DNA from: a virus
Length of the DNA: 42,249 bases
IMG/VR virus record: IMGVR_UViG_3300038309_000005
Coordinates: 1-42,249 of that record
Direction: 5' to 3' (one strand)
In this document: positions 15,277 to 37,397 of the stretch, piece by piece
Layout of the letters: each line of letters opens with the position of its first letter
Position numbering within the stretch: the stretch's first letter is position 1
Made by a program: the position numbers and the translations under genes
The notes under the pieces: model-generated
What the model saw: the letters and a program-made list of their open reading frames with translations, nothing else
What the model was told of the DNA's origin: nothing
Database searches by the model: none

Positions 15277-17537
15277 TGGGATTTAATTTTGATGAGGCTT
15301 CTAAATATTATAGTAAGCAGGAAATTATTAATCATCTAGAATCAGCAGGTTCAGTTGATTTTGATTTTAAGGGAGCTAGAAATTCTGGGGCTAGTGATGA
15401 TGATATTTATGAGTATTTATATCAATCTAATACTAAGCAATCAGAACCTACTCAAATTCCTAAAGAATATGAAACAGCTATTAACAAGTTATCTTCTGAG
15501 CCTCAGATACAACAGCCTACAGAGCCTCAGATGCAACAGCCTACAGAGCCTCAGATGCAACAGCCTACAGAGCCTCAGATGGATTTTACAATTCTGCCAA
15601 AAGAGGAAATGTATGTATCAGATGTAACTGCTACTAAATCTAGTATGTCTATCCCTGTCTTTGATGAGCGTGGTAATGCTGAGTTTGAGACTATTAATAC
15701 TCAAGATCTACCAATGAAAATGGAGAAATTAAGAGATGAGCGTATAGAAAAAGCTCAGAAGATTGCTACTGAGTCTACTTTTCCTCAGTTAGTGGCTGAC
15801 CCTGAAACTGGCGAAATGATACCAGTACAGCCTCAAGGACTACAGACTGATATCCCATTCTTTGTAGCTGGTGGTGGAAAACTAGCTATGTTTAGTATTG
15901 AGGGAGCACTAGGTAAGCAAACTACTGGAATAGCTAAAGCTGCTTCTATTATTGAAGAAGAATTTATGAAAAATGCTAACTTAGCTGCTATTGGTGATGG
16001 ACTAACTAAGGAAGCTAAGTTGCTATTAATTAGGAATCCGCAGGTTACTAAAGAAGAAATTCAAAAATGGGTAGAAGGAGTACCTAAAGCAGATCAAGCT
16101 TATGTTATTGCTAGACGACTACGAGGTGCTGGTAGGGGTTATATACAAAAAGCTGTAGCCTCTGAGGGGGATTTAGCGGCATCATACTTGAGAGCAGACT
16201 TACAACGTGCTGGAGCTAAGGTAGAAGAAACTATAGGCTCAGTAGATGTGCAATTAGCAAAAGCTAAATATGGCGATATGATGGATGAAGTTGCTAAGGA
16301 TTATAAAAACGTTAGAGATGCTAGTGTAATTCTTAAAGATTTAGATTTTCTGGATGGATTCTATGGCGTGGCTCCTAGTGCAGGTAATACTACTATAACT
16401 AAAATGAAAGCAGTATTAGGAGAGAATCCTAAAATTTCTTTAGTAGATGCCCTAGAGTTCCGCTCAGATATTAACTATTTGTTAAGTAAAGCAGGTAGAG
16501 GTAAAGAGAAAATAAAACTTAATAATGTTAAAAATAATCTAGATAATTTTATTAATAGTGTAGCTACTCCTGAACAGAAAGTTATGATTGATGAAGCTAT
16601 AGATTTTTATAGTACAACTATGCAGAATAGAGATACTTTAGCTATCTTACAGAAACATACAAATGAGGATGGTTTAGTAGACTGGATTAAAACTGCTAAG
16701 GATTTAGAAGAAGCTGGACTAAAAACACCAGAATCTAAAGCCGCATTAGAGATTACTAAACAATTTGCTGAGAAATTCGGTAATGATATAAAACTGTATT
16801 CTGCTGCTACAACTAAAGGTGTATCTGAAGACGGCGGTGGGTGGATTTATATTTTAGGGTTAGTATCTAATACTATTAGAAATACTTTAGCTAGGGCTGG
16901 GGATTTAATTGGTGTAGAAACTAATAGGGGAGCTGGACTACGCATACAGAATGCTATTAAGAAAAGTATTCTAAAAAGCAAAACACCGCTAGATTTTGTA
17001 GATAATATAAAAGCTAGTGAATACATACCAGATACAGCTAAAGAGAAACTAACTGAGCCTGTAGTTAAGATGATCGAATATAAACCAAAACCAGTTAAGA
17101 TTAGCGATACTAGCGAATCGTGGGGTAAATCTGTACCAGCTCAACTGCCTAGAACACCAGAAAATATCCCACAAGATCAAGTATCCAATATCTCAGAAAA
17201 GATGATAGATGCTACTAAAAAATTAGAATCCACTACTATGATTAATGAAGAAACATTCTCATCTTTCATCAAAGAGCGGGAAGCTCTTAATGAGTATAAA
17301 AAATACTTAGGTAATATCTATAATGATATTATCAATGAAAGTAATATAGCAGCTAAAGCCAAAGTCCGTAATGCTGTTAGTAAATTTAGAAGTAAAGTAT
17401 CAAAAGATATGAATAGGGATGAGTTTACTAAGTATTACGATGAGTTTCTTAAATCATTAGGTAAAGCGGGTGTAGAATCTAGTAAAGTAGAGTCACCAGC
17501 AGAATTTTATAGACGGTGGAAAGCTAATAAGGAGTAA
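15276..17537 (+). CDS. Internal virion / DNA ejection protein, large
   Basis: The 753-residue protein has a short N-terminal helical domain (FDEASKYYSKQEIINHL), then a disordered Pro/Gln linker with a 24-bp tandem repeat (about residues 75-102). A helical body of 600 residues follows with no enzymatic motif that I can identify, and a basic C-terminus. Position after the portal (TAATG overlap), size and composition fit the largest ejection protein of P22-like systems. A muralytic domain was looked for and not found. Confidence 0.5.
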   Translation: MGFNFDEASKYYSKQEIINHLESAGSVDFDFKGARNSGASDDDIYEYLYQSNTKQSEPTQIPKEYETAINKLSSEPQIQQPTEPQMQQPTEPQMQQPTEPQMDFTILPKEEMYVSDVTATKSSMSIPVFDERGNAEFETINTQDLPMKMEKLRDERIEKAQKIATESTFPQLVADPETGEMIPVQPQGLQTDIPFFVAGGGKLAMFSIEGALGKQTTGIAKAASIIEEEFMKNANLAAIGDGLTKEAKLLLIRNPQVTKEEIQKWVEGVPKADQAYVIARRLRGAGRGYIQKAVASEGDLAASYLRADLQRAGAKVEETIGSVDVQLAKAKYGDMMDEVAKDYKNVRDASVILKDLDFLDGFYGVAPSAGNTTITKMKAVLGENPKISLVDALEFRSDINYLLSKAGRGKEKIKLNNVKNNLDNFINSVATPEQKVMIDEAIDFYSTTMQNRDTLAILQKHTNEDGLVDWIKTAKDLEEAGLKTPESKAALEITKQFAEKFGNDIKLYSAATTKGVSEDGGGWIYILGLVSNTIRNTLARAGDLIGVETNRGAGLRIQNAIKKSILKSKTPLDFVDNIKASEYIPDTAKEKLTEPVVKMIEYKPKPVKISDTSESWGKSVPAQLPRTPENIPQDQVSNISEKMIDATKKLESTTMINEETFSSFIKEREALNEYKKYLGNIYNDIINESNIAAKAKVRNAVSKFRSKVSKDMNRDEFTKYYDEFLKSLGKAGVESSKVESPAEFYRRWKANKE
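15498..15581 (+). repeat. 24-bp tandem repeat in the large ejection protein
   Basis: There are three full units (15498-15521, 15522-15545, 15546-15569) and a half unit (15570-15581), encoding EPQIQQPT, EPQMQQPT, EPQMQQPT and EPQM. Units two and three are identical in DNA and unit one differs by one base. This implies recent expansion of a flexible Pro/Gln linker. Copy number probably varies between relatives. Confidence 0.9.
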
Positions 17538-23697: not shown

Positions 23698-25377
23698 TTA
23701 AAATACCTCCACTTTGTCAAGATACTCAACCTCAATAGGCATAGGAATATCTTTGTAATACATAATAGGACATTTACACAATTCTGTCCAACCTTTCTTC
23801 ATAGCTTTACCAAGTCTAGGAACCCATACCTCATACTCAGTTCTAGGAACTCTGAGATAGATAGCATCGTGTACTACGTTGTAGATATACTTAACTGCTT
23901 CTGGGTACTCTTGACATAGATAATGCACAGCTAGTTTAGTTGTCTCAGCAACCCCTCCTTGTGTAGCATAGTTGATAGCATCAGTACCAAGTCTAGCCAT
24001 GTTACGATGACCTAGTGGTGTAACTACTGGAACGTCTTTATAATTATTCCATTTAGTTTTATGGTACTTATAGATACCTTTATACTTGTTAATATACTTA
24101 GAGTGAATCTCTTGAGATTCTTCTAGTGTTAGTACAACACCATACTCAGTATAAGCATACTCAATAAAGCTTGCAGGAGACTGACCGAAAATCTTACCAA
24201 AGCTAATAGCCTTTCCTTTCTGTCTATTCTCTTTGTAAGGTTTAGTACCCTCTATCATAATACCTCTATCAACACCAGCCATAATAGCGGCCTCAACGTG
24301 TAGGTCTAGTCCAGCTTTAAGCTCATTATACATAGCTTCATCTTGCATAATACTAGCACCAGCTCTAAGCTCAGCTGTTGAGTAGTCTGCATGAATAACT
24401 ACTGTATCCTCTGTGTCAGAGTTAAAGATATACTGTAAATCTCTCGTGATCTGCTGAGCGTTAATACCTAGTGGGTTATCACCTCCAGTAGCAGTAAACC
24501 GTGATGTAACAGCACCATTAGGATTGAAATACGTGTAAACCTTTGGGTAGTTATAGGTATTTAGCATAGTTCTACGTTTAAGAAGTCTGCGCTGATCGAA
24601 TACCAACTTAGCTAGCTCTGCTTTAGCTCCACCTTCTGAGATTAAGTGAATTAGAGTCTTTTTGTCTGATGAGTCAACACCTAAAGCTTCTTTAACCTGC
24701 TTTGGAGAGTTTGGATTAAGTCCATTAAGCTTAGTTGTATTCTCAGCAATAACATCTTTAATCTTCTCAAGCTCTTCCTGAACTGCTTGTTGATTGACTA
24801 CTAGCCCATTATTTTGGTACTGAATAGAGTAGCCTAAGCTGAGAATATCTAGCTTATATGCAGCTGTTTCCATAGCTCTTTGAAGCTGTTTATCTTTCCA
24901 CATCAAGCTAAGAGCATATACGTCAGTGGCAGAATATCGGTACTGATTCTGAGAAAGATAGCATCCTTTTCTAAAACCTGCTTTCTGCATAGCTTTCTTA
25001 TCCAGATCACCGTAAAGCTTGTCATAACCTAGCTGAGTCATTACATCATCTAACTTATAGCTTTTCCAAGCAGGGTAAGCAATTCTAGCAGCGTATTGAA
25101 GATCATCAAATTTAGCAGTAGTATATCCCAATGTACCAAAGTCGTATGAAGCACCCCACCAAACAGTATGCAGTGGTTTGATAAATTCCTCAACCTCAGC
25201 TTCACTAACACAGTCAGCATCAATTACAAAAACCTCATCAGCTGTTTGAGGTTGATATAGCTGAACTAATCTAAGCCCAATGTAAAGCTCTTGAGTCTCA
25301 ACGTCAGCAAATACTGGATGATCTACTGAGAACTTTGGCAGTTCGTCAATAGATTCTATTACTTTGAACTTAACCAT
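23698..25377 (-). CDS. Family A DNA polymerase with 3'-5' exonuclease
   Basis: The 559-residue replicative polymerase has exonuclease residues Asp25/Glu27 (FADVETQ), Asp79 (GASYDF) and Asp152 (YSATDV). Polymerase motif A is HADYSTAELRAG (Asp331), motif B is RQKGKAISFGKIFG (Arg385, Lys389, Phe393, Phe397) and motif C is NVVHDAI (His503-Asp504-Ala505). Two departures from most relatives: the motif C Glu is Ala, and the motif B Tyr before Gly is Phe. There is no 5' nuclease domain, which is supplied by the separate exonuclease. A hairpin terminator separates it from the SSB gene. Confidence 0.95.
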   Translation of the reverse strand: MVKFKVIESIDELPKFSVDHPVFADVETQELYIGLRLVQLYQPQTADEVFVIDADCVSEAEVEEFIKPLHTVWWGASYDFGTLGYTTAKFDDLQYAARIAYPAWKSYKLDDVMTQLGYDKLYGDLDKKAMQKAGFRKGCYLSQNQYRYSATDVYALSLMWKDKQLQRAMETAAYKLDILSLGYSIQYQNNGLVVNQQAVQEELEKIKDVIAENTTKLNGLNPNSPKQVKEALGVDSSDKKTLIHLISEGGAKAELAKLVFDQRRLLKRRTMLNTYNYPKVYTYFNPNGAVTSRFTATGGDNPLGINAQQITRDLQYIFNSDTEDTVVIHADYSTAELRAGASIMQDEAMYNELKAGLDLHVEAAIMAGVDRGIMIEGTKPYKENRQKGKAISFGKIFGQSPASFIEYAYTEYGVVLTLEESQEIHSKYINKYKGIYKYHKTKWNNYKDVPVVTPLGHRNMARLGTDAINYATQGGVAETTKLAVHYLCQEYPEAVKYIYNVVHDAIYLRVPRTEYEVWVPRLGKAMKKGWTELCKCPIMYYKDIPMPIEVEYLDKVEVF

Positions 25378-25451: not shown

Positions 25452-26081
25452 TTAAAGCTCTGGGCTTTGATCGCCGTCACCGATAGCGGCGTAGAGGTCT
25501 TCACCAAGGTCTAGATCGTCAGCACCTTCGATCTCATCGGCTTCGATTACTGTACCTTCATATTTGACAAGCTTAGCAAGCTGGATAGCACTAAGGTACA
25601 GAGATACTTTGTGTTTACTTCCAGTGTTATTGCCCTCAGCTACGCCGTGGATAATGCCCTCTGAATCATTACCGATTGACCAAGGTGCTGAGTGAACAGC
25701 TTTGGTAATATCAGTACCTTTAGGGTCGAGTACTTTGATCTCTTTCTTATTACCGTCAGGCCAAGCCACATCAGTTTTGAAAGTGATAAGACGATCATCA
25801 GTCTCAGCATCAGTATCAGGGTCTTTTACTACCTTAATACCGATAGTATCAGGCTTAGATGCTGGCTTAAGGCCATTAGCAGTCTTATACTCATCCCACA
25901 CTTCCATACACTTAGCTTCCATATCTTTAACAATATCGGAATCTTTGTGAGCAACAATAGAAGCAACATACATCATGCGTGGCTCTTTGTCTGCCATTGC
26001 TTGATTCCGACCTTCACCTTCGATGAATATATACTTTAGTTTGCCAACTTTAGTTTTGACATTTTTCTTAACCTTAGCCAT
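25452..26081 (-). CDS. Single-stranded DNA-binding protein (T7 gp2.5 / DUF2815-like)
   Basis: The 209-residue protein has an OB-fold-like middle (LKYIFIEGEGRNQAMADKEP through IHGVAEGNNTGSKHKVSLYL) and a strongly acidic C-terminal tail ending DLYAAIGDGDQSPEL, typical of phage ssDNA-binding proteins whose tail recruits polymerase. The start MAKVKKNVKT at 26081 is supported by AAAGGACAC just upstream; an in-frame ATG at 26123 adds an implausible extension. It uses translation-favoured codons (CGT, GAC, AAC), consistent with abundance, and is followed by a terminator. Confidence 0.75.
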   Translation of the reverse strand: MAKVKKNVKTKVGKLKYIFIEGEGRNQAMADKEPRMMYVASIVAHKDSDIVKDMEAKCMEVWDEYKTANGLKPASKPDTIGIKVVKDPDTDAETDDRLITFKTDVAWPDGNKKEIKVLDPKGTDITKAVHSAPWSIGNDSEGIIHGVAEGNNTGSKHKVSLYLSAIQLAKLVKYEGTVIEADEIEGADDLDLGEDLYAAIGDGDQSPEL

Positions 26082-26159
26082 TGTGTGTCCTTTGTGTTGT
26101 TTGTTTTCTGTTGTTTGCATCATCTTGCATAAGTTAAGCTAACCAATTTAGACTTAGTA

Positions 26160-26978: not shown

Positions 26979-28169
26979 CTAAAGCACAAAAACCTTTCTC
27001 TTTGCTCTGCTAATAGCAACATACATCAACCGTGCATAGTTGCGGTAGTTACCACCGAAAATAGACTTCTGAATATCTTTTTTATCTATCCATACTCTAT
27101 TAAACTCTGAGCCCTGAGCTTTATGAACTGTAGAAGCAAAACTATAATCCATAGTAAAAGCTCTACCAATGGCATACACTTCTCTAAACTTCTTTTTGTC
27201 TTTTATAGCTGCTTCCTTAGCCTTTCTCCTCACTTCATAAGCAGTACCTATTCCTATAATCACTGGAATAATCTTACCTTCTGAGCTGATAAACTTAATG
27301 TGTTTATTGGTTTGTATAGCTTCTAAATTGCTTACTAAAAATTTCCTATTAATCTGACTATTTTGTAGCTTAAGTGTACCAGTCTCATACCAAGTTAATA
27401 ACTCCCGTAGCGATGGCTCTACAAAGCTATCAACTTTATATAGGTCTGGTTGACTTCCTAGCTGTACTTCCTGACCAACAAAGCTATCAATACCAAGCTT
27501 CCCTGCTATCTGCTTATTATAGTCTCCTACAGCTTTATTAGTATATGCTAATAGTCTATCGCCCTCTAGGAATCCATCTAAGTTCTCAGCATAGAGAACA
27601 TTATCTGATTCTGGTGTAGTAAGATCATCAACATTACTACCTTCTAAGTAATTTACAAACTTAGTAAACAGTTTAACTACGTCAGGACTCTCAGCTCTGT
27701 GCTGAACTGTTAAGTTAGTTGTAGTAGCTGGGTCAGTTTGTATCTGAATACCTTTAACAGGTAATAATTGATAAGGGTCTAGGAATAAGTGTAGAGTGAT
27801 GTGGTCTGTCTCGAAGTCATTAAGCTCTTCTAGTTTACCGACAATACTCATAAGCATTTCTTCGCTCATCATTCCAGCTTCATCAATAACTATATCTGTA
27901 TAACTATCAATGTCTTTTTCAAGCTTAATAACTGTATCAATATGGTTAATGTGCTGAGCATCTTCATTAATGCTAGGAATCCATCCAAGCAACGCATGAA
28001 TAGTACTAAGCTCAATAGCTGATGTAACTGCTGGTCTAAGTCTAGCTAATGCTTTATGTGTTGGAGCTAAAACTACTGAGGTAGTAGGGTCTAGCTCTTT
28101 GTTGATTAGCATTAGAAGCTTAGTAGATTTACCAGTACCAGCGTATCCTGTAGTATATAGTATTCTCAT
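26979..28169 (-). CDS. SF1B helicase, Dda/RecD-like
   Basis: The 396-residue helicase has Walker A GYAGTGKST (8-16), motif Ia APTHKAL, motif II IDEAGM, motif III LDPYQLLPV, motif V-like FASTVHKAQGSEF and motif VI YARLMYVAISRAK. This ordered set identifies the Dda/RecD2 type, a 5'-3' translocating helicase used in phage replication start and recombination. Its ATG overlaps the preceding stop (ATGA). Confidence 0.92.
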   Translation of the reverse strand: MRILYTTGYAGTGKSTKLLMLINKELDPTTSVVLAPTHKALARLRPAVTSAIELSTIHALLGWIPSINEDAQHINHIDTVIKLEKDIDSYTDIVIDEAGMMSEEMLMSIVGKLEELNDFETDHITLHLFLDPYQLLPVKGIQIQTDPATTTNLTVQHRAESPDVVKLFTKFVNYLEGSNVDDLTTPESDNVLYAENLDGFLEGDRLLAYTNKAVGDYNKQIAGKLGIDSFVGQEVQLGSQPDLYKVDSFVEPSLRELLTWYETGTLKLQNSQINRKFLVSNLEAIQTNKHIKFISSEGKIIPVIIGIGTAYEVRRKAKEAAIKDKKKFREVYAIGRAFTMDYSFASTVHKAQGSEFNRVWIDKKDIQKSIFGGNYRNYARLMYVAISRAKRKVFVL

Positions 28170-29723: not shown

Positions 29724-30181
29724 AGATTACCCTTTACGTCTTCAATAGCACCATCATAGTACTTAATAAGTCTTAGCAGTTCGCTATATTCGGGGTTTGT
29801 GTAATCTAGTTGCTCAGCTATAGTTTTTTTAATCTCATAGAATCTTTCTAGTTGATACTCTAGCGACTCTCTCCATGTTAGCTTATTCTGTAGATAGGCT
29901 AGAGTGAGTTGATCAATTTGCAGAAGCTCAGCTAAGGTAGGTCTTGTGATCTTAGTCTCTTTCTTAGGAGTTTCATGGAAATCTCCATCATAGCAGTAAA
30001 GTTCTATCTTATAATGTCCTGACATATTGTCAGTACCACAGATAGTAAAATCGTTAACGCATAAATAAGAAAATATTTTACTATCAAGAATATAAGGGCT
30101 AAATGTTTTAAACCCTCTATTTAGTAATAATTCCTGAGCTTCTTTTGTATTTTTAGTGTAGTGATCTTCAGTAAATTTCAT
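29717..30181 (-). CDS. Hypothetical early protein
   Basis: The 154-residue product has a beta-rich N-terminal half (GFKTFSPYILDSKIFSYLCVND, CGTDNMSGHYKIELYCYDG) and a helical C-terminal half (TLAELLQIDQLTLAYLQNKL). No catalytic motif or family is recognised. It overlaps the Ala-rich repeat gene by 14 bases. Probably a host-interaction gene by position. Confidence 0.55.
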   Translation of the reverse strand: MKFTEDHYTKNTKEAQELLLNRGFKTFSPYILDSKIFSYLCVNDFTICGTDNMSGHYKIELYCYDGDFHETPKKETKITRPTLAELLQIDQLTLAYLQNKLTWRESLEYQLERFYEIKKTIAEQLDYTNPEYSELLRLIKYYDGAIEDVKGNLC

Positions 30182-30911
30182 TGTATTTCTCTTTAAGTGA
30201 TTCTTCTATCATAGACTCTAGTAGTTTGTTAGATTCACTTAATGCTGCTGATAGTGCTGCTGACCATGCTGCTGGCTGTGCTGCTGACCATGCTGACTCT
30301 GCTGCTGACCGTGCTGCTGACCATATTGATTCTGCTGCTGCCCGTGCTGCCTCTGCTGCCTCTGCTGCTGCCCATGCTGCTGCCCATGCTGCTGACTCTG
30401 CTGCCCATTCTGCTGCTGACTCTGCTGGCCATGCTGCTGCCCATGCTGCTGGCTGTGCTGCTGACTTTGCTGACCGTGCTGCTGACTCTGCTGCTGATTC
30501 TGCTGCTGACCGTAATTGAGTATTTCCTGTAATCAGGTAATTAACTATTGTATTATACTCCTCATCGTCATTACAATAAGGCTTAATTTTCACGATGTTG
30601 ATAAGTGCTTGCTTTCTAGCAAACTCTCTTAACAATTCAGCAGCATCAAGTTCAGCTAAGTAAGTACGCTTCTCAGCACATAGTTTATCATCATCAGTTA
30701 GTATCTCACCACTAAGCTTTACGATATATAAAATACTTCCTGGAGCATATTTTAAAGCATCAAGAGCTCTTTCTGAGGCATGGAGTCCCCAGTTACAAAA
30801 TTCTAATGGGCTTTCTGTAATATCTACTGTGTGAGTCTCACCAACTACGATAGGTCTGTTATCCCTATAACGTAGTTTTCTTTTTTCTGTAGCGAAATAG
30901 TAGGCTCTCAT
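30168..30911 (-). CDS. DUF7666-type protein with Ala-rich repeat tail
   Basis: The 247-residue product has two parts. The N-terminal domain (1-130) carries NWGLHASERALDALKYAPGS and EKRTYLAELDA, the pattern of a phage domain of unknown function seen with similar tails. Residues about 132-225 are a degenerate repeat of S-A-A-x-x/W-A-A units, with Trp, Ser, Glu and Arg at regular places, suggesting an extended amphipathic helix or repeat rod. It ends in a charged helix (KLLESMIEESLKEKYNEIY). An extended -10 promoter lies upstream. Confidence 0.65.
   Translation of the reverse strand: MRAYYFATEKRKLRYRDNRPIVVGETHTVDITESPLEFCNWGLHASERALDALKYAPGSILYIVKLSGEILTDDDKLCAEKRTYLAELDAAELLREFARKQALINIVKIKPYCNDDEEYNTIVNYLITGNTQLRSAAESAAESAARSAKSAAQPAAWAAAWPAESAAEWAAESAAWAAAWAAAEAAEAARAAAESIWSAARSAAESAWSAAQPAAWSAALSAALSESNKLLESMIEESLKEKYNEIY
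30238..30518 (-). repeat. GCN-rich degenerate coding repeat
   Basis: About 280 bp of near-repetitive CTG/GCTG-rich DNA (plus-strand view) encodes the Ala-rich segment. Three- to nine-base periodicity is strong, and it opens long false frames on the other strands. Such DNA is prone to slippage, so length should vary between relatives and may be misassembled from short reads. Confidence 0.85.
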
Positions 30912-31284: not shown

Positions 31285-31489
31285 TTGTTATCCTTTCTTA
31301 TGTCCTCTCTAAGTTTCTCCAAATATGCCCAGCTAATTTTACCATTTTTCATAGCATTTTGAAAGTGCCTAAATGCTGGAAATTCTCCCATCCAGCTTAT
31401 AGCTTCTCTCAGCTCTCTATGACCTTTTCCGTTTCTTTAAGTTTCTTATAGTCTGAGTTTTTAATCACTCTATATCCTAAAAATTTCAT
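31281..31489 (-). CDS. Small helical protein, frame broken by one base in an A-run
   Basis: The ATG at 31489 overlaps the primase stop (TGATG) and reads MKFLGYRVIKNSDYKKLKET, ending early at 31409-31411. The -1 frame past the A4 run at 31425-31428 continues convincingly as RELREAISWMGEFPAFRHF, then NGKISWAYLEKLREDIRKDNK, up to a TGA that overlaps the next ATG. One added A would give a 69-residue protein. A sequencing error, a recent mutation or a ribosomal shift are all possible. Confidence 0.55.
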
Positions 31490-33792
31490 CACTCTAATCC
31501 TTCTATTGGTGTTATCTCCATACCATCAAAACTGTCTAAGTTGTTAAACAGTTCTGTTGGAACCCTAACTACAACCTCATACACATTCTTATTGTAGTCT
31601 TTCTGCTTAGTGTTACGCTTTATGTACTTGCCTAGCCCGTGCTCCTTAGCTTCCTTCATAGTTAGTGGGGTTGTGATAGGATTCTGAGTCCTACTTACTA
31701 CAGCACCATTAGTCTGTAGAGGGATATAAACCTGTTGCCCTCTACCTAACCTAAAGTACGGGTTGTTATTGTTACAAACATTACTAAGCTGTCTGTTAAA
31801 TTCTGGCGCAGTGATATTACCTGTCTCAGCTTTAGCTATCAGCAATGCTAAGGTAGTGGCCGCATTGTCGTGATCTGACTTATCTTCTACCATCTCGTCG
31901 CTAACCTTATCTCTCCAGTGGTTTGCGTCCATATAGATACCACGATCTAGTAGCTTAACGTCTCTAAGGTGTCGGCAGAATGCTTCAAGCTCCTTAACCA
32001 CTAAGTGCTCTAGGTGAGGAATGTTAAGACGATCTGCTGTAAAGCTCATAAACATAACAATACGTCTATCATCTAATCCTTCTTTCATAACTTCCATACG
32101 GTTCGATGATACTAAGAATGTACCATAGTTGCGGTTAAAGCTGGTAGCATCCTTCCCTTTACTCTCAGCTCTAAGCGTCTTCGAGCCTGATACCTTTTTA
32201 ATGTAGTCTATCGTACTCTGTAGGATTACGTCCTCATCATGCTGAATGAACGAAGCACCTATAAACTCAGCATTAAACTGATTGTTAGAGCTGTTAATAT
32301 TACTCTTAACTACTGGGTCAATAGCTCCAAGTATCTGCTCTTGCAACACACCTTTACCAGCACCTTTAATTCCTAAGAAGTGAAATACTAGCGGGCTATA
32401 GTCAAAAGTCTTAAACTTATGGCTAAGAAACTGCTCAAATAGTGTTATTGCTTTCTTCGGGTCTTCTAGGTCTTTTACTAAGTTCTCCAGTATCTTCCTA
32501 ATAGTAGGAAAGCTCTCAGAGTCCGATGGTATCTCAGCATCCTCAAGCCCTCTAATAATGTTAAGATAGCGTGAGGGCTGAAAGGTATTATATACCAGTG
32601 TACCGTCTAAGTCCTGAGTAAGCCCTGATGAGAGGTGTTTACTGTATATAACCTCAGCTGTAGGAGTATTAGCTAACAGTAGGTCTTCCTTAATGTTACC
32701 AATATCCTTACCATCTATCATAAGCTGAAAATTCTTACTTTTCATCGCCTTAGCTAACTTAGGAAACCCTGTAAACTTCTGTAGCTTTCCACTGTTTCTG
32801 CTAGTGTAGTAAACATCGTCAGCATCTCTGCATAGCTGTTTAAAGGCGTGACCATCTATAGAAACTAGAGGGCCACTATTGTAATGCTCATTGTAGTGGA
32901 ATAGCTTCTTACCGTTAATCGTCTGAGTCGTTAAGTTTGAGAGGTGCCCTTCTAGCGTCTTAATGTCCAGAGGGTCACTCCAGAGCTCTGTTGCGATAAC
33001 TGTTATCAGCTCACGGTGCAGCTCAGGACTAATAGAAGCATCACCAGCTATCTTAGCAGTGAGAGCCTGTAGATAAGAGATTCCCTCACCCTCTGGGATA
33101 TTGTCTGGGTGGTAGTCAGGCTTAACCATTGGGCGGTAACGCTTAGGTGTTATCTGCTGCATCAGCTTTCTAAGGCTCTGGTCATAGTCCTTAGTACGAC
33201 TCCACATAGCTAAGGCATTATCTATCAGTGGTGCGCGGAATGTCCCCGAGGGCTCATAGTCTGAGCTCTGCTCTAGTATGTCCTTAGACTGGCGGCTGAT
33301 TAAAATATCTACTAACTCTTGTGGTATCGGTGTGAGGCTGTCTAGGCTACCCTGCTCTACGTTCTTAGTTAGGTTAGCTTCACATGCTGGATAAACTAAG
33401 CTATTCCCTTGTAGTATGTCGATTTTATCCGCTGTAGTTCTGCTTGCTGAGTAAAGCGGTGAATTTCTAAAATACTCAGTCGGAGCGAAGTAAAAGTGCT
33501 TAGTACCATTATCACTCTTAACTATGTAATGCTCTTCGGCGTTTTGTGTCTGGTTTAATAGAGTCTGCACTAGGTCTGTATTCTCTAATGTATCACAATC
33601 TATAACTACTAAATCATCATCTGGTCTAATAACATAACTAGGGCTAGTAACCTTAGCTGTATTATGCTTAATGTCTTTCCATGCTGGTAGCTTAGGATAG
33701 CTAAGATGTTTCTTACTACTAAGCTCAGTGTATGACTTCTTACCAGTTTTAGGGTTACGTTTAATAACTATGTTGGTTTTGATTAATAGCAT
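31489..33792 (-). CDS. Primase-helicase (AEP-like primase plus SF3 helicase)
   Basis: The 767-residue protein has an N-terminal primase/polymerase-type domain with VVIDCDT (about 62-68) and GTKHFYF (about 96-102), and a C-terminal SF3/D5-like helicase with Walker A GIKGAGKGV (474-482), an acidic FIQHDEDV and VSSNRMEV. A C-terminal winged-helix-like tail follows. It would unwind the fork and lay primers for the family A polymerase, replacing a T7 gp4-type enzyme. Codon use is less AT-biased than in its neighbours, hinting at a separate origin. Confidence 0.8.
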   Translation of the reverse strand: MLLIKTNIVIKRNPKTGKKSYTELSSKKHLSYPKLPAWKDIKHNTAKVTSPSYVIRPDDDLVVIDCDTLENTDLVQTLLNQTQNAEEHYIVKSDNGTKHFYFAPTEYFRNSPLYSASRTTADKIDILQGNSLVYPACEANLTKNVEQGSLDSLTPIPQELVDILISRQSKDILEQSSDYEPSGTFRAPLIDNALAMWSRTKDYDQSLRKLMQQITPKRYRPMVKPDYHPDNIPEGEGISYLQALTAKIAGDASISPELHRELITVIATELWSDPLDIKTLEGHLSNLTTQTINGKKLFHYNEHYNSGPLVSIDGHAFKQLCRDADDVYYTSRNSGKLQKFTGFPKLAKAMKSKNFQLMIDGKDIGNIKEDLLLANTPTAEVIYSKHLSSGLTQDLDGTLVYNTFQPSRYLNIIRGLEDAEIPSDSESFPTIRKILENLVKDLEDPKKAITLFEQFLSHKFKTFDYSPLVFHFLGIKGAGKGVLQEQILGAIDPVVKSNINSSNNQFNAEFIGASFIQHDEDVILQSTIDYIKKVSGSKTLRAESKGKDATSFNRNYGTFLVSSNRMEVMKEGLDDRRIVMFMSFTADRLNIPHLEHLVVKELEAFCRHLRDVKLLDRGIYMDANHWRDKVSDEMVEDKSDHDNAATTLALLIAKAETGNITAPEFNRQLSNVCNNNNPYFRLGRGQQVYIPLQTNGAVVSRTQNPITTPLTMKEAKEHGLGKYIKRNTKQKDYNKNVYEVVVRVPTELFNNLDSFDGMEITPIEGLE

Positions 33793-33992
33793 TTTAGATC
33801 TTTAAGGCTAAGTAGGTTTAGCAGCGAGCTAAGTTTAGAGCGACTCATGTTAAGCTTTAAGGCTACCTCTTGCTGAGTTGTGCGCTGTATATCTAATAGT
33901 ATTTCATCTTTGTGTATTACTAAGTTTGCATAGTAATCTTCTTTACTAAGCTTCTCCGTCTTTATAATGCTTAGGAATTCTTCGTAATTCAT
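33783..33992 (-). CDS. HTH regulator next to the control region
   Basis: The 69-residue product starts MNYEEFLSIIKTEKLSKEDY at 33992, with AAAGGCC upstream; a longer frame from 34025 would use the operator region. It has a helix-turn-helix around QQEVALKLNMSRSKLSSLLN. A dyad operator lies 23-45 bases upstream of its start codon, suggesting that it controls itself and perhaps replication. The stop overlaps the primase start. Confidence 0.6.
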   Translation of the reverse strand: MNYEEFLSIIKTEKLSKEDYYANLVIHKDEILLDIQRTTQQEVALKLNMSRSKLSSLLNLLSLKDLKCY

Positions 33993-34014
33993 TGGTGGCC
34001 TTTGGTGTTTGCAG

Positions 34015-34037
34015 AATGTTGACAATATGTTAACATT
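34015..34037 (-). promoter_or_regulatory. Dyad operator upstream of the HTH gene
   Basis: Arms AATGTTGACA and TGTTAACATT (9 of 10 symmetric) flank a 3-base centre. The site lies in the leader of the HTH gene, a classic place for autoregulation by a small dimeric regulator. The protein-DNA link is inferred. Confidence 0.5.
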
Positions 34038-34061
34038 TTGTCGGTAAATTTAGGCTTAGGG

Positions 34062-34120
34062 CATTTCTTAAAGAATTCTTAGAATTTTGTGTGGGAATTT
34101 TAAAAATTCTTTAAGAAATG
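34062..34120. repeat. 16-bp perfect inverted repeat in the control region
   Basis: CATTTCTTAAAGAATT (34062-34077) and its exact reverse complement AATTCTTTAAGAAATG (34105-34120) enclose 27 bases. The left arm borders a smaller palindrome, AAGAATTCTT (34071-34080). A stable hairpin or cruciform is possible. It belongs to the non-coding 34026-34447 stretch, which otherwise holds the operator, a G+C-richer core (34120-34245) and the GAGTCA arrays. I see no convincing gene in it. Confidence 0.85.
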
Positions 34121-34248
34121 TTTGCAAATACGGCCCTGTGAGGGTCGATATTTTTAGGGCTACCTTGGGTATCCTTGGGCGTAGATCGTTCGCTGTGGGC
34201 TTTGTATGGAGTTTTGAGTTTTGCGTCGGTTTGCTTCGGTGGGCCAAA

Positions 34249-34416
34249 GAGTCAGAAAGAGTCAAAGAGTCAGCTGGAGTCAGCTTTTCCATTAAATCAA
34301 AAGTTAAATTGAAAAATCGAAAAAATGCGACTTTACTGACTCTTAGACTCTTTTGACTCTTTGAATTATCTGTATTTATTGACTCTTATTATTTACTGAC
34401 TCTTTTGACTCCAGCT
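34249..34416. repeat. Opposed GAGTCA / TGACTC repeat arrays (candidate origin)
   Basis: The left array has four GAGTCA copies (34249, 34259, 34267, 34277). The right array has five exact TGACTC copies (34337, 34354, 34380, 34397, 34406) and one variant AGACTC (34345). Larger arms also pair: AGCTGGAGTCA (34272-34282) with TGACTCCAGCT (34406-34416), and CAAAGAGTCA (34263-34272) with TGACTCTTTG (34354-34363). The centre (34283-34336) is A-rich. An array of short sites around an AT-rich core fits a replication origin or a multi-site operator; the function is inference. Confidence 0.75.
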
Positions 34417-34447
34417 AACTCACTAGCGAAATAACCTTAGAATACCA

Positions 34448-34672
34448 TTAAAGTTCGTCCAATTCCTCCAGTTCAACCTTAGAAATATCAGCGAACATCT
34501 TAAAGTCTGTATCGCTTAGTTCCGCAACTGTATTAACAGCCTTAGCCATTCCACTAACTGTACCGTCATACGTCCAGCTAATTGTGTATTGCTTCTCTAG
34601 TACACGAGTGATAATTAGCTTATCCCCATCCTCAACCGTAACTACATTGTTACAAACTCTGAAAGTTAGCAT
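34448..34672 (-). CDS. Hypothetical early protein
   Basis: The 74-residue acidic product starts MLTFRVCNNVVTVEDGDKLI, beta-rich at first, then a helix, with an acidic end (KVELEELDEL). No family is recognised. Its start overlaps the stop of one copy of the duplicated gene. It is the last gene before the control region on this side. Confidence 0.55.
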   Translation of the reverse strand: MLTFRVCNNVVTVEDGDKLIITRVLEKQYTISWTYDGTVSGMAKAVNTVAELSDTDFKMFADISKVELEELDEL

Positions 34673-34854
34673 TAGTACTCCTCTCCCAAATAGTTGTATG
34701 TAGCTTGAGTTACAGCATTATTATACTGAGCTAAAGCATAACATAGATTATAGTGTGTATCTACCTCAGAACCACAAACTACGATATACTTATCACAAGT
34801 TTTATACAGTACGATATGTATATGAACAACCTTAGTTTCTATTAGAATCTGCAT
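34672..34854 (-). CDS. Duplicated small early protein, copy A
   Basis: The 60-residue protein starts MQILIETKVVHIHIVLYKTC with KYIVVCGSEVDTHYNLC next. It aligns along its length with the neighbouring 57-residue copy B: an identical first nine residues, the same VLYK, KYI-V-x-G-x-EV and a helical end. It is preceded by the same leader hairpin and Shine-Dalgarno as copy B. Role unknown. Confidence 0.65.
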   Translation of the reverse strand: MQILIETKVVHIHIVLYKTCDKYIVVCGSEVDTHYNLCYALAQYNNAVTQATYNYLGEEY

Positions 34855-34869
34855 AACACCTCCTTAATA

Positions 34870-34908
34870 GTGTTTAATAGGGCCTACCGAAGTAAACCCA
34901 ATAAGCAC
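34870..34908 (-). promoter_or_regulatory. YNCG-tetraloop hairpin and RBS stem, copy A leader
   Basis: On the minus strand GGGTTTAC and GTAGGCCC form an 8-bp stem (two G-U) closed by a TTCG tetraloop, extended by imperfect outer pairing. Just downstream AACAC and GTGTT (34857-34876) enclose the Shine-Dalgarno AAGGAG. The same two structures recur at 35097-35135. They may stall RNase, attenuate transcription or gate translation. Confidence 0.6.
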
Positions 34909-35081
34909 TAATCCTCCTCAGCACATAGCGCATGGCTGATGCACTGCTGATAGTTATTAAGCGCCATTGATTTATAATCAAAACTTTCTACCTCAGCACC
35001 ATAAACCAGAATATACTTATTTAGTGACTTATACAGCACCACAATAATCCCATTAACCTTAGTTTCTATTAGAATCTGCAT
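34908..35081 (-). CDS. Duplicated small early protein, copy B
   Basis: The 57-residue protein starts MQILIETKVNGIIVVLYKSL, with KYILVYGAEVESFDY next and a helical acidic end. It is a paralogue of the gene at 34672-34854, made by tandem duplication that included the leader. AAGGAGG precedes the ATG. It was found by reading the minus strand of the gap and is below usual length cut-offs. Function unknown. Confidence 0.65.
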   Translation of the reverse strand: MQILIETKVNGIIVVLYKSLNKYILVYGAEVESFDYKSMALNNYQQCISHALCAEED

Positions 35082-35096
35082 AACACCTCCTTAATA

Positions 35097-35135
35097 GTGT
35101 TTAAGAGGGCCTACCGAGGTAAACCCTTTAAACAC
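35097..35135 (-). promoter_or_regulatory. YNCG-tetraloop hairpin, copy B leader
   Basis: On the minus strand an outer perfect stem GTGTTTAA / TTAAACAC is joined by a small internal loop to GGGTTTAC / GTAGGCCC, closed by CTCG: about 16 paired bases. Relative to copy A the loop changes within the stable YNCG class while both 8-base inner arms are identical. The stop of the upstream gene touches the base of the stem. There is no U-run, so it may not be a simple terminator. Confidence 0.65.
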
Positions 35136-37284: not shown

Positions 37285-37310
37285 TAACTTCTTTAGGCTT
37301 ACATTATTAA

Positions 37311-37328
37311 TACGCGCACGCACGCGCG
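37311..37328. other. Alternating pyrimidine-purine tract (CG/CA)
   Basis: 18 bases strictly alternate pyrimidine and purine (TACGCGCACG then CACGCGCG), in otherwise AT-rich DNA. This is the classic composition for left-handed DNA under supercoiling, and it contains the short dyad GCGC / GCGC. Confidence 0.6.
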
Positions 37329-37397
37329 AATATCATAACAATGCTTTGAACAACCTTAAGCTTCCGAATTAATGTGTGCCAAGCCTAAGGCTGTTAG

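Follow-up and report, generated by a model that had tools for sequence, protein, structure and literature searches.

The DNA analyzed, here called the window, comes to 42249 bases and is a record of the IMG/VR virus collection, corresponding to a 42-kb podovirus. Short repeats in opposed orientation mark a gap flanked on one side by a 74-aa ORF and on the other by a small HTH gene, which is located immediately upstream of the primase-helicase gene. No convincing gene was found over 34026–34447, as the initial annotation had proposed. It had also named an HTH gene and a primase-helicase gene as neighbours; both adjoin the array, the former being recognized as HTH by sub-threshold Pfam matches only. 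The features relevant to the analysis are the following.

23698–25377, minus strand: family A DNA polymerase, the presumed primer extender.
25452–26123, minus strand: Gp2.5-like ssDNA-binding protein.
26979–28169, minus strand: Dda/RecD-like helicase of the replication operon (domain search; synteny).
31489–33792, minus strand: primase-helicase of 767 aa with AEP and SF3 motifs, the presumed reader of the iterons.
33783–33992, minus strand: small HTH protein, 69 aa from the ATG at 33992.
34021–34042: imperfect palindrome, GACAATATGTTAACATTTTGTC, just 5' of the HTH gene.
34062–34077 and 34105–34120: A/T-rich inverted repeat with perfect 16-bp arms, CATTTCTTAAAGAATT and AATTCTTTAAGAAATG.
34249–34282, plus strand: array 1, four GAGTCA iterons at 34249, 34259, 34267 and 34277.
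34283–34336: core, 54 bp (54–56 bp, depending on where the site end is set), 74% A/T with A/T tracts, similar in size to the cores of relatives; the presumed melting region.
34337–34411, minus strand: array 2, five TGACTC (34337, 34354, 34380, 34397, 34406) and the variant AGACTC (34345), opposed to array 1.

Read along the minus strand, the reading strand of the replication operon, six GAGTC-bearing sites are followed by the A/T-rich core and by four opposite sites. The sites, and the 10- and 11-bp arms able to pair, are those listed in the initial annotation. The outer spacings differ between the arrays (10, 8, 10 and 8, 9, 26, 17, 9), which are not mirror images. A longer unit, AAGAGTCA, occurs 11 times in the genome, 7 of the 11 copies lying in the array region. 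The density claimed for a 6-mer was borne out by shuffling. With 21.4 copies of GAGTCA expected, the genome contains 36, a count reached in none of 100 shuffles, and 9 of the 36 copies fall within the 163 bp of the arrays. Opposed arrays were scored by the Poisson tail of each side, for any 6- to 8-mer at any place. The window array scores 19.6, the maximum in 30 shuffles of the genome being 8.8, and 19.5 when the 6.5-kb region upstream of the primase is block-shuffled 100 times, with 7.1 as the highest shuffled score. In a genome-wide scan it ranks first among non-coding opposed arrays, and no second one was revealed. A cluster of short repeats with an A/T-rich region near a putative initiator gene is what iteron origins feature.

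No sequence matching the DnaA box TTWTNCACA with one mismatch or less is found in 34000–34600, and a DnaA-dependent origin is not indicated there. Rfam and tRNA scans gave no matches. GAGTC fits the GANTC target of CcrM-type methylation, the words found in relatives do not, and this reading was dropped. A GC-skew profile had been suggested as a check. The coding-strand skew at 4-fold degenerate sites is 0.15 left and 0.19 right of the array, with no switch, and the skew does not support an origin.

The perfect 16-bp inverted repeat noticed earlier exists at 34062–34120, and extends to 25-nt arms at 92% identity. Among 16 relatives scanned, an inverted repeat in similar position was found in G006 and G012 only. 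To judge from these sequences, the element looks peripheral and not generally conserved, and it was ruled out as a conserved part of the origin. The palindrome at 34021–34042 is inferred to be a candidate operator of the HTH gene, which probably starts at the ATG at 33992 rather than at the longest-ORF start, 34025.

Other repeats are found in the window. The short neighbouring ORFs 34672–34854 and 34908–35081 have near-identical leaders (cataacacctccttaatagtgttta...gggcctaccga), denoting a tandem duplication (34672–35110). The region 30168–30911 encodes a protein of 247 aa that includes a long tract of repeats rich in Ala, Ser, Glu and Trp; these coding repeats contain 4 of the other TGACTC copies, and similar coding tracts reside in L014, L015, L033 and L056. 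Five genomes each contain one copy of a tract of alternating CG (such as CGCGCACGCACGCGC) with (A/T)ATATCATA immediately after it: the window (37303–37341), G001 (near 2971), G003 (near 29944), G007 (near 34018) and G009 (near 266). In the window the tract lies near the start of the early operon, and is a candidate promoter, packaging or other signal.

The 767-aa protein features the motifs of archaeo-eukaryotic-type primases (AEP), namely DxD (D65, D67), H99 and D125, all invariant within the close clade in the primase alignment, and those of SF3 helicases (Walker A G474–K480, D519–E520, N564, R576–R577). DUF5906 is matched with E 2.6e-12, placing the helicase among the SF3/DUF5906 proteins. 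The Pfam Prim-Pol cut-off is not reached by the window protein itself; the nearest relative, L012, is above it (E 3.8e-5), and the N-terminal domain was counted as AEP. In a structure model with pLDDT 82, which superseded an earlier one too poor for use (6 sequences, pLDDT 54), the best PDB match by Foldseek is 6k9c, the C-terminal region of NrS-1 polymerase (E 2.3e-15). By analogy, the stretch that follows the helicase, about 640–755, is a candidate iteron-binding domain.

Along the minus strand, the primase-helicase gene is followed by those for the Dda-like helicase, the Gp2.5-like SSB, the family A polymerase and a 5'-3' exonuclease and, after ThyX-like, MazG-like and ligase-like proteins (assigned by eye), by a VRR-NUC nuclease and an SF2 helicase. 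The order is much like that in Edwardsiella phage KF-1 (Kafunavirus), Vibrio phage VPMS1, PH1, Amaethon and two Manatee Spring podoviruses. Replication gene order and capsid protein relatives in common mark the window phage as Kafunavirus-like, with no claim on genus membership. As to the host, no relative of the primase was found in the genome collection searched, and capsid relatives occur in only two metagenome bins, Micavibrio and Negativicutes, which may be mis-binned.

Relatives were analyzed at 126 loci selected by the primase alignment and the capsid protein, and at five more from a later scan, partly on the same contigs. A search for clustered 6-mers revealed arrays with a single switch of orientation and a different word in each, confirmed by reading the sequences. 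The words, given in primase orientation and pointing into the core, are the following.

G012: AAGTACA, five facing two.
G008: TAGTAG.
G010: ATACAG, degenerate, called by eye.
L222: AATACA.
L218: TATACA, degenerate, called by eye.
G003: TATTCTA, seven facing four.
G019: AACCAA.
G002: AAATC.
G004, G005: AAGAC.
G014, G020, G029, G037, VPMS1, Amaethon: AATCC.
KF-1: ATAATA.

The array of G001 is degenerate and was called by eye, and those of G006, G007 and G011 are doubtful. Most cores measure 44–77 bp. None of the named relatives carries a GAGTCA array. Conservation in relatives, which had been proposed as a check, holds for the layout and not for the word: GAGTCA is not conserved; the opposed layout, with an A/T-rich core between the arrays and in most cases a position upstream of the primase, is. 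In the Kafunavirus clade the array lies 3–6 kb from the primase. KF-1, VPMS1 and Amaethon share with the window the replication gene order and have opposed AATCC or ATAATA arrays, set about 4–6 kb upstream of the primase; the primases of the Kafunavirus-like phages, PH1 included, differ from that of the window, being only 19–20% identical to it. No description of an origin was found for any of these phages, Kafunavirus-like ones included, in the literature searched.

Since the detector postdates the first sightings of arrays, two controls were run. In the first, the 6.5 kb upstream of the primase were block-shuffled 100 times per sequence. The observed score was unreached by any shuffle in 20 of 51 sequences, among them the window, G002, G003, G008, G012, G014, G019, G020, G029, G037, KF-1 and VPMS1. 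The best match is weak or of another kind in G004, G009, G016, G044, PH1 and MW202744. The exact-word detector found no clear array in some relatives, such as G006, G015, G017 and G039, nor in PH1. In the second control, 14 fully read genomes were scanned throughout. In 11 of them the top non-coding opposed array resides no more than 3 kb upstream of the primase, and in 7 no more than 1.5 kb (p = 7e-11; 4e-6 if placement is modelled much more leniently). Once the genomes seen previously (window, G003, G008, G010, G012) are set aside, 7 of 9 are still within 3 kb upstream. All 7 top arrays scoring >10 are found 0.45–2.9 kb upstream of the primase match. The matches in G004, G005 and G009 are low-scoring, and differ from the arrays read by eye.

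Other arrays were also noted. Clusters of the palindrome GACGTC, an array of a different kind, occur in non-coding DNA of PH1 (L007 12961–13172), near the terminase genes, and of G016 (42407–42540 and 6–111), near the contig ends. In the 6.5 kb upstream of the G009 primase, a ~26-bp unit, AACAAATTCCAACGGATTATAATATAAT, is repeated in tandem about ten times and adjoins AATTTG repeats.

The word tracks the primase tree, as judged from the tree and from pairwise identities. G004 and G005 have the same word and primases 88% identical; G014, G020 and G029 share AAATCCA, with primases 53–66% identical. G037, VPMS1 and Amaethon have the word AAATCCTA in common, and the sisters G010 and L222 an AAATACA-like word. 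KF-1, with ATAATACC, is the exception. Words differ among the window, L218, G008, G012 and G010, whose primases are about 28–37% identical. These correspondences show that, as far as sequence comparison tells, the word belongs to the primase lineage. Such a pattern would be expected from co-evolution between a protein that reads DNA and its site; common descent of a linked array and gene would explain part of it too.

Among the proteins discussed, we know of published biochemistry for the PrimPol of Nitratiruptor phage NrS-1 only. DUF5906 is common to this protein and the window family, and a profile of the primase family of the window matches the C-terminal region of NrS-1 PrimPol (E 6.4e-30). 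An opposed array of GGTTACAC is found in NrS-1 at 17061–17214, directly 3' of the PrimPol gene, scoring 19.5 against 8.0 for the next-best in that genome; copies in the other orientation are few. No opposed array is described for NrS-1 in the literature searched. NrS-1 PrimPol starts synthesis at the template TTTGGTTA and at GTG motifs (PMC8718748). The sole exact TTTGGTTA counted in the genome, against two copies stated in PMC7102993, is at 17198 on the minus strand, inside the right array. Of the two template motifs published for the enzyme, each fits a different strand of the iteron, which gives no single direction of priming. The array is overlaid by NRS1_29 (L216 17055–17456), annotated as a hypothetical protein and probably not a gene. 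Several copies of the same 8-mer, TTTGGTTA, reside in the G019 array (L168 4590–4910). The primases of G019 and NrS-1 are 16% identical and the orientation of the 8-mer to the core is opposite; the occurrence may be a coincidence.

The region 34249–34411 is probably the replication origin of the phage, made by two opposed iteron arrays around an A/T-rich core. This reading is preferred because the arrays are far above chance; because relatives feature the same architecture, with lineage-specific words, near the primase; because the neighbouring gene encodes a PrimPol-SF3 enzyme whose best structural match is the NrS-1 polymerase; because the NrS-1 array, beside the PrimPol gene, holds the published template site; and because iteron binding is known from initiators of the SF3 type, in SaPI, SCCmec (Cch2) and P4. 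Counted against it were the lack of a skew switch, the relatives in which the exact-word detector found no clear array, the 3–6 kb between array and primase in the Kafunavirus clade, and the 3' position of the array in NrS-1, itself a distant relative. Of the candidate origin as first annotated, the opposed arrays stand as the best-supported reading; the 16-bp inverted repeat as a general part, and arm pairing as a conserved feature, do not.

At such an origin, the 767-aa primase-helicase would bind the iterons as double-stranded sites. The opposite arrays would seat two helicase hexamers facing the core, which would melt, and the primase domain would prime on the exposed strands. The family A polymerase, aided by the Dda-like helicase and the SSB, may then extend the primers, giving two diverging forks.

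The repeats might alternatively be an operator array, bound by the neighbouring HTH protein or another regulator, which controls transcription of the replication operon and not the start of replication. The small HTH gene directly adjoins the array, and small genes, partly HTH-like, are found there in several relatives. Some of these neighbours are not HTH-like, however, and in the Kafunavirus clade and G003 the array is 2.9–6 kb upstream of the primase, away from that gene. The separate palindrome at 34021–34042 is a better operator candidate, and two opposed clusters around an A/T-rich core of 45–75 bp are unusual for an operator. We consider this explanation unlikely.

Less likely still is a stem-loop origin of the pRN1 kind, in which what counts would be the folding of the arms into a long stem that carries a loop of some 60 nt, and not the words. 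pRN1, whose protein is of the AEP-SF3 type, needs a 21-nt stem and a 58-nt loop, the sequence of which is not conserved (PMC4234260). Folded as single-stranded DNA, the arms of the window reach z = -5.5; in VPMS1 a 52-bp core is flanked by perfect arms of 26 bp, and arms of 21–64 nt are featured by G003, G037, G012, KF-1 and Amaethon. Against this, iterons are kept in G002, G008, G010, G014, G019, G020 and G029, where the stem is absent or barely above shuffled controls. A pRN1-type stem (about 20 bp, loop about 60 nt) is not common to the members, and in the window the stem scores 14, the maximum of the shuffles being 12. The outer spacings of the window arrays are not mirror images, and since opposed iterons are bound to be complementary, the stem may be only their side effect. 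Because some relatives keep iterons without stems above chance, directional binding sites are the common denominator.

Very improbable is an element unrelated to origins, whether a signal for packaging or for genome ends, or a set of tandem repeats that slippage has expanded in non-coding, A/T-rich DNA. In its favour, the words of relatives are A/T-rich, tandem repeats occur nearby (e.g. G009, G010) and the VPMS1 record happens to end at its array. Against it, slippage yields direct repeats of one orientation and not an orderly switch at an A/T-rich core, the window array is 3.3 kb from the small ORF preceding the terminase-like gene, the arrays are repeatedly found near the primase, and members of a primase clade keep the same word.

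The origin reading may be extended, tentatively, to a general scheme that we hold possible, although the odds are rather against it. Opposed iteron arrays would be the common origin type of PrimPol-SF3 replicons. The word would serve both as the duplex dock of the helicase and as the template start of its own primase domain, as TTTGGTTA does in NrS-1; word and protein would co-evolve into many mutually private replicons, and the pRN1 stem-loop would represent a reduction of this design to one or two sites on each side. The array could account for the odd 8-nt site at which NrS-1 PrimPol starts on its template. The finding gives an exact test site in dozens of genomes, turns stem-loop versus iterons in AEP-SF3 replicons into a testable question, and points to an initiator family whose private short words could supply private replication systems.

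As an origin, the element would be a variant of the known iteron origin with an SF3 initiator. The iterons bound by SaPI Rep and by SCCmec Cch2 are located near the respective genes, and priming by CCPol-MP takes place at an iteron (PMC7581432). As in the window, short iterons lie near the gene of a ring helicase, which reads them in SaPI and SCCmec and presumably does so here. Unlike in the window, the origin is downstream of the gene and the primase is separate. In P4 alpha, primase and helicase make one protein that, as described in PMC4234260, uses a winged-helix domain to bind the origin repeats and carries out unwinding and priming. The window protein likewise joins the two activities, but the primase of alpha is of the bacterial (Toprim) type. 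To our knowledge, the P4 origin repeats are not of opposed design. pRN1 resembles the window in having an AEP primase-SF3 helicase protein, with the element beside its gene; its stem-loop, conserved in geometry (PMC4234260), is similar in size to window-type arrays. It differs as an archaeal plasmid described as devoid of iterons, with a single stem and no iterated words. NrS-1 differs from the window in being a temperate siphovirus, in its word, in the position of the array (3' and not 5' of the gene) and in the protein, a distant relative (14–19% identity) 14% identical to that of the window; its PrimPol serves as the replicase, whereas the window phage also has a family A polymerase. The two share a PrimPol-SF3 protein with DUF5906, and beside its gene an opposed array with an A/T-rich core.
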